64,000 nucleotides of DNA from assembly GCF_002234675.1 (NCBI RefSeq), contig NC_019859.2, forward strand, positions 34,543,460 through 34,607,459, written 5' to 3'. This document shows, piece by piece, positions 16,847 through 36,748 of this stretch. A program made the position numbers and the translations under genes. This DNA comes from Oryzias latipes. Its lineage: Eukaryota > Chordata > Actinopteri > Beloniformes > Adrianichthyidae. Numbering within the stretch: the stretch's first letter is position 1; each line of letters begins with the position of its first letter. The notes under the pieces were generated by a model that was not told the DNA's origin, did no database searches, and worked only from the letters and a program-made list of their open reading frames with translations.

Positions 16847-16909
16847 TCACTCGGAGTCCCGCTGGACCTCGGAGGCGTCGGCTCGACAGATGGGACAGGT
16901 CCGGTTCGC
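16847..16909 (-). CDS. rnf38: rnf38 last coding exon (end of RING, stop codon)
   Basis: After the acceptor GTGTCTGACAG the exon reads [20 protein letters not shown] and stops with TGA at 16849-16847. It provides the last two zinc ligands (C697, C700) and the family's usual short C-terminal tail. The preceding intron of about 1 kb (16910-17913) holds no recognised feature. Confidence 0.96.
   Translation of the reverse strand, partial: ANRTCPICRADASEVQRDSE

Positions 16910-36748: not shown

Follow-up and report, generated by a model that had tools for sequence, protein, structure and literature searches.

A predicted N-terminal extension of rnf38 in Oryzias latipes, assembled by splice phase and conserved in part in a paralogue

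RNF38 proteins and the rnf38 gene of the window

RNF38 is characterized in excerpts of one paper as a nuclear protein that acts on p53, with reported ubiquitin ligase activity and three predicted isoforms (PMC7916862), and excerpts of another place it in the nucleus of tilapia neurons (PMC6292424). Together with RNF44 it is related to Drosophila murashka according to passages of a paper on a Drosophila relative, which hold nothing on an N-terminus (PMC12383540), and a passage on the CTL family describes its members by a YEELL motif beside the RING-H2 domain (PMC5764321). The human canonical form has 515 residues, by arithmetic from a passage that gives its lysine desert as 371 aa or 72.0% of its length (PMC10169902). 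Among the matches listed in the RNF38/RNF44 literature (titles, abstract starts and passages), no description of the N-terminus reported here was found.

The window, by which we mean the whole 64,000-nucleotide stretch of Oryzias latipes DNA that was analyzed, carries a minus-strand gene whose 12 coding exons join into a single frame of 712 codons, with its stop at 16847 and AG/GT borders at the 11 introns. Exon 3 (21334..21536), which holds the SPSPKRQR motif, starts in phase 0 and has an in-frame TAG directly upstream; the joined frame continues through exons 4 (20873..21242), 5 (19985..20149), 6 (19617..19787), 7 (18687..18860), 8 (18486..18589), 9 (18309..18393, ending ...DDGEVENYE) and 10 (18105..18226), and a YEELL-like motif, read by eye, spans exons 9 and 10 with the RING next. 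The first part of the RING-H2 domain lies in exon 11 (17914..18013), and its end, with the stop, in exon 12 (16847..16909); both were placed by the joined frame and the match to human RNF38, exon 11 also by a Pfam search. With its flanks, the RING-H2 domain is identical at 75/77 residues (E 1.4e-50) to the chain of human RNF38, an E3 ubiquitin-protein ligase (PDB 4v3k, 4v3l, 1x4j), and it is of the RNF38 type, not the RNF44 type with CVVCFSDFE. Both proteins contain a long lysine-free stretch, and the canonical human form is shorter than the 712-residue model, with an N-terminus that presumably differs from it. We also take the SPSPKRQR exon to be a mark of RNF38 rather than RNF44, as in human. 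The RING identity, together with a paralogue of the same three-exon layout (see below), supports on sequence grounds the identification of the gene as rnf38 made in the preliminary description of this DNA.

We searched the genome (25 contigs, 734,051,031 bases) with a 278-residue query that combined conserved stretches of the protein body from several exons, and obtained 34 matches at E up to 0.001. Beyond the window gene, multi-exon matches lie at two contig-10 loci, 13870543-13875961 (minus) and 20357055-20358883 (plus), and the remaining matches cover just the RING part of the query. We examined 40 kb per contig-10 locus, 80 kb in all. The RINGs of the minus-strand gene, which is rnf38-like, and of the plus-strand gene are identical to that of human RNF38 at 71/77 and 67/77 residues, respectively. 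The plus-strand gene (G000:C10, about 20.354-20.359 Mb) has the RING sequence CVVCFSDFE and is presumably rnf44, a name based on the human sequence. It shares the body and the RING family of the window gene (65/77 RING residues alike) but differs in its counterpart of exon 3, where stops immediately precede SPMRPWE. An SP(S/T)PKRQR exon is present in both rnf38-type fish genes, whereas neither this motif nor SRSRSG was found in the 40 kb examined at the rnf44-type locus, about 34 kb of it upstream. The primer passage of a tilapia rnf38 study (PMC5583157) gives four primers that show 1, 4, 3 and 2 mismatches to the minus-strand contig-10 gene versus at least 6, 6, 9 and 7 to the window gene, where the best place of the last two primers is not the corresponding one. 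Given this better fit to the contig-10 gene, the gene studied in tilapia was probably the counterpart of this sister gene.

Several unrelated features lie in the window or close to it; for the surroundings, the reading frames of 10 kb of flanking DNA per side were listed. At 149-1554, four tRNA genes occupy about 1.4 kb, with tRNA-Gly (tcc, gcc) on the plus strand alternating with two tRNA-Glu (ctc) on the minus strand, and Rfam at gathering thresholds returned these four tRNAs only. Open frames at 11349-13156 (minus) and 40185-40592 (plus) resemble what we take to be pieces of LINE-type reverse transcriptases, and a 307-codon open frame in L017 (1765-2688, minus), with a CCHC knuckle, is presumably retrotransposon gag-like. 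About 6 kb past the right end of the window, in L018 (5731-6243, plus), a 170-codon frame with MMSEYEPTEAESG resembles, by eye, the first coding exon of a neighboring gene.

Exon 1, exon 2 and the splice phase

The preliminary description had placed two exons upstream of the SPSPKRQR exon, a CpG-rich one of 604 nt and one of 62 nt, and both are found at these places on the minus strand with AG/GT borders. Exon 1 (36229-36832) is preceded by CAG and followed by GTAAAT, and its GC content is 0.69 with a CpG o/e of 0.90 over 36229-36829. The 5' untranslated part (36749..36832, 84 nt) contains no ATG and follows a CAG acceptor that has a branch site resembling ctaac, and the coding part (36229..36748) opens with the ATG at 36748, encodes residues 1-173 plus one base and ends in phase 1 at CAG/GTAAAT. 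A further intron probably lies upstream of exon 1, with candidate donors ending at 37712, 37888 or 36937. Exon 2 (26355..26416; GCAG...GTAAGT) is 9.8 kb distant from exon 1 and leads from phase 1 to phase 0. Counted from the ATG at 36748, the chain places 194 residues ahead of the SPSPKRQR exon.

As had been argued from splice phase, the 62 nt bridge the phase 1 in which exon 1 ends and the phase 0 that exon 3 requires; joined straight to exon 3, exon 1 reads ...QAAE followed by a stop. Within the 14.7-kb intron between exons 1 and 3, AG..GT pairs spanning 25-200 bases were scored with simple splice weights, and the 62-nt exon came out on top whichever of five threshold settings was used (5 to 180 pairs). 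The pairs that fit the phase, the 62-nt exon included, number 1/5, 3/37, 7/60, 11/103 and 19/180 from the strictest to the laxest setting. The earlier statement that only the 62-nt exon fits is thus nearly correct: it holds at the strictest thresholds, and at the four laxer ones 2 to 18 other, weaker pairs fit as well. None of 200 introns simulated with a first-order Markov model contained a fitting pair as strong, and 3/200 contained one in any phase; at strict thresholds the simulated introns held 0.36 fitting pairs on average, none matching the strength of the 62-nt exon. The opposite strand of the intron, taken as a control, yielded 7 pairs with 1 fit, the best fit scoring 7.6 versus 16.4 for the 62-nt exon. 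As none of the three frames of exon 2 contains a stop, only its length and its splice strength count as evidence.

The same three-exon layout in a second rnf38-type gene

The rnf38-like paralogue on contig 10 (G000:C10:13870543-13878733, minus; within L034, G000:C10:13870001-13880000) carries EDSPTPKRQRLS. Its exon 1 lies in a CpG-rich stretch, starts MDPPRIRSRSRSGFY, begins with ACC ATG G and reads MDPPRIRSRSRSGFYHFAINGSVG; it has 319 coding bases and ends with ...VHGAHRNPGA in phase 1. Exon 2 of the paralogue, the 53-nt counterpart of the 62-nt exon, contains HFHPDNVCVEDRDK, reads GGVLHFHPDNVCVEDRDK and leads from phase 1 to phase 0, and the PKRQR exon follows in phase 0. The 2,450-base intron of the paralogue offers 2 candidate pairs, of which the 53-nt exon scores higher and alone fits. 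Common to the two genes are the layout of exons 1, 2 and 3, the phases, RSRSRSG(Y/F)Y, GAHR and HPD...DRDK; alignment and codon comparison delimit a conserved block at 36407..36442 (minus) in the window gene, for which the paralogue has PRIRSRSRSGFY. The paralogue differs in having no counterpart of residues 1-97, a longer linker rich in G, N and Q, and its first three exons within 3 kb, compared to 15 kb in the window gene. Skipping of exon 2 would shift the frame in both genes, with an immediate stop in the window gene and, in the paralogue, a stop after about 56 residues of exon 3.

Compared to shuffled sequences, the start block (30 residues from Met98) scores 63 versus a null maximum of 47 (0/5000), the end of exon 1 with exon 2 scores 70 versus 52 (0/5000) and exon 2 alone 48 versus 43 (0/5000), and no shuffle was as good as the whole 194 residues against the paralogue (0/2000). 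For residues 1-97, 1576/5000 shuffles scored as well against the paralogue, so no similarity is seen there. Across three aligned blocks (38 codons), chosen by eye for likeness, which favors conserved first and second positions, the two genes differ at codon positions 1, 2 and 3 in 6, 10 and 26 cases (26/42 at the third position); of these codons, 9 are the same in both genes, 16 carry silent differences and 13 encode a different residue. Searched against the whole genome, the N-terminus gave 14 matches, namely the two exons of the window gene and 12 at E 0.58-6.75, and missed the paralogue exon, which means that the similarity is short; since the paralogue was missed, we did not use the silence of this search as a sign of uniqueness. 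When just the 80 kb from both contig-10 loci were searched, the match of exon 1 had an E of only 0.004, and the exon 2 query found an unrelated place at E 0.002 versus its true counterpart at E 0.005. Judged from the sequences, a similarity this short is convincing mainly through its position in the gene. By this comparison about 97 residues are conserved between the paralogues, as would be expected of coding exons from a common ancestor, and we see no ordinary route by which chance would produce it.

The paralogue also bears on the reading that exon 1 opens some other gene and agrees in phase with exons 2 and 3 by chance, for which one could invoke the 9.8 kb between exons 1 and 2, the frequency of open frames in GC-rich DNA and the openness of exon 2 in three frames. 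Because the paralogue keeps the three corresponding pieces together, within 3 kb and in the same order and phases, we give this reading hardly any credence. The chain first put together by splice phase is borne out by a gene with the same succession of phase 1 and phase 0 and with the RSRSRSG(Y/F)Y peptide. Thus, the window very probably holds one of two rnf38-type genes of this genome, whose mRNA would most likely start in the CpG-rich stretch around 36.9-37.9 kb or slightly upstream and join 36229-36832 to 26355-26416 and to 21334-21536, giving an extension of either 194 or about 97 residues. Long as it is, the extension is ordinary N-terminal exon architecture, and the label "previously unexpected" in the preliminary description is borne out only in part.

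Coding character, start codon and proposed role of the extension

In 5000 simulated sequences with the composition of exon 1, a given sense frame was open in 13.6% of trials and any of the three in 37%, and another minus-strand frame at exon 1 is open for 244 codons. Because of this chance openness and the neighboring frame, an open frame is weak evidence here, and we rejected ORF length as proof of coding; the 28 codons from the acceptor to the ATG are open as well, without a GC3 signal (0.39 in the Met1 frame). GC by codon position (1/2/3) is 0.694/0.607/0.827 in exon 1 and 0.680/0.497/0.723 in exons 3-12. This order is seen in no other of the six frames of exon 1, and the one antisense frame that, as a mirror, also has its top GC at position 3 contains 5 stops. 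Trained on the codons of exons 3-12, a codon model assigns 0.03 bits per codon to this frame over the whole of exon 1 versus -0.185 or lower to the five others; at 60-180 nt of exon 1 an antisense frame outscores it.

This coding-type composition, along with the conserved peptide, the phases and the pattern of silent changes in the paralogue, argues against a purely leader role of exon 1, in which the main transcripts would use another first exon, like the canonical human form, and the protein would start, for example, at Met206 in exon 3 (MSSHSV). Comparison of the human N-terminus with the window upstream of exon 3 gave a score of 35, within the 33-51 of 20 shuffles, so that for this one query peptide no counterpart was found in this one window; we do not regard this N-terminus as a defining trait of the family. 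A leader role would accord with the stop that appears right after exon 1 when exon 2 is skipped in the window gene, with a canonical human form of 515 rather than 712 residues (from a passage of PMC10169902) and with the three RNF38 isoforms predicted according to excerpts of PMC7916862. We consider it improbable.

The preliminary description had claimed an extension of 194 residues, of which the last 97 or so are upheld by their conservation in the paralogue, whereas residues 1-97 lack similarity there and show GC3 periodicity only. Short of proof, this periodicity and the composition make it likely that residues 1-97 are coding. In 90-nt steps, GC3 goes from 0.40 upstream of the ATG at 36748 to 0.83 downstream of it; the straddling step has 0.63 and the steps thereafter 0.73-0.93. 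Codons 1-97 have a GC3 of 0.86 versus 0.65 at positions 1 and 2 together (chi2 12.0, p 0.0005), and the excess in the next 76 codons has a p of 0.037.

Translation may instead begin at Met98 (36457) or Met100 (36451), two in-frame starts at 36449..36457 (minus) that align with the Met at which the paralogue starts; the 291 bases above them would then be leader and the extension would comprise about 97 residues, which is a sub-case of the explanation that we favor. The paralogue start Met has a good context (CAAACC ATGG), there is no ATG in the open stretch above it, and residues 1-97 are unconserved in the paralogue. Set against this are the GC3 excess of codons 1-97, a GC3 shift that falls at Met1 and not at Met98, the C at -3 of Met98 and the upstream, in-frame position of Met1, which scanning ribosomes would meet first. 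The context of Met1, GAAAGGAA ATGC, is fair, not optimal, and the putative long 5' leader (36936-37241) has three short upstream ATG frames (6, 14 and 6 codons at 37241, 37055 and 36953, minus). On balance, Met1 is probably the start codon used, and initiation at Met98 or Met100 is a possibility to which we attach less weight.

The hydrophobic fraction is 0.19 in residues 1-97 and 0.10 in residues 98-194, Q, N, G, S, Y and P make up 51-53% of the extension, and its conserved half is net basic (10 K/R versus 5 D/E). Lysines of the model occur at positions 30, 194, 202 and then 631, with gaps of 163 and 428 residues; with just two lysines, at 30 and 194, in the extension and none in the next lysine-free run (203-630), the fish ligase would bear a long, almost lysine-free tail. 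No Pfam family matched residues 1-261 at E up to 1, and no solved structure matched exon 1 at E up to 1. An AlphaFold2 single-sequence prediction of residues 1-173 contains no helix or strand (mean pLDDT 53.1, with residues 11-30 at 72-73; pTM 0.13), which would fit a disordered tail. Structure predictions without an alignment are often poor for any protein, and a fold search from this model was dropped because the prediction was too weak. The RS dipeptides of RTRSRSRSG are reminiscent of the RS domains of SR proteins, but the RS block of the window protein is just 9 residues long and residues 1-261 contain neither an RNA-recognition motif nor any other Pfam match, and we did not assign the protein to this class.

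The conserved element would consist of the start Met, PR-x-RSRSRSG-(Y/F)Y, a variable linker rich in Q, N, G and S, GAHR and an exon 2 with HPD...E(E/D)RDK. It might form a flexible, nearly lysine-free tail on a nuclear RING-H2 ligase, with an Arg/Ser block upstream of KRQR, that would add docking or phosphorylation sites without offering ubiquitin-acceptor lysines and would not be catalytic; we regard such a role as the likeliest mechanism, at about even odds. The serines of the RS block could be phosphorylated upstream of the KRQR basic element. Phase separation would be possible with such a composition, and the idea in the preliminary description that the extension alters localization or phase behavior is speculation.

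More tentatively still, and with considerable doubt, the element may represent an ancestral vertebrate RNF38 N-terminus that was kept in the fish duplicates. In mammals it would perhaps persist as an unrecognized first exon in a CpG island, with another promoter giving rise to the short canonical form. The two forms would then offer two modes of targeting, and skipping of exon 2, with the frameshift that it would cause in either gene, could act as an off switch. As regards gene models, a paralogue in the same genome can back a chain of exons joined by phase only, even when a genome-wide peptide search misses that paralogue. If the N-terminal element of fish RNF38 is conserved and absent from the human canonical form, work restricted to the short form would miss a part of the protein that has been under selection.
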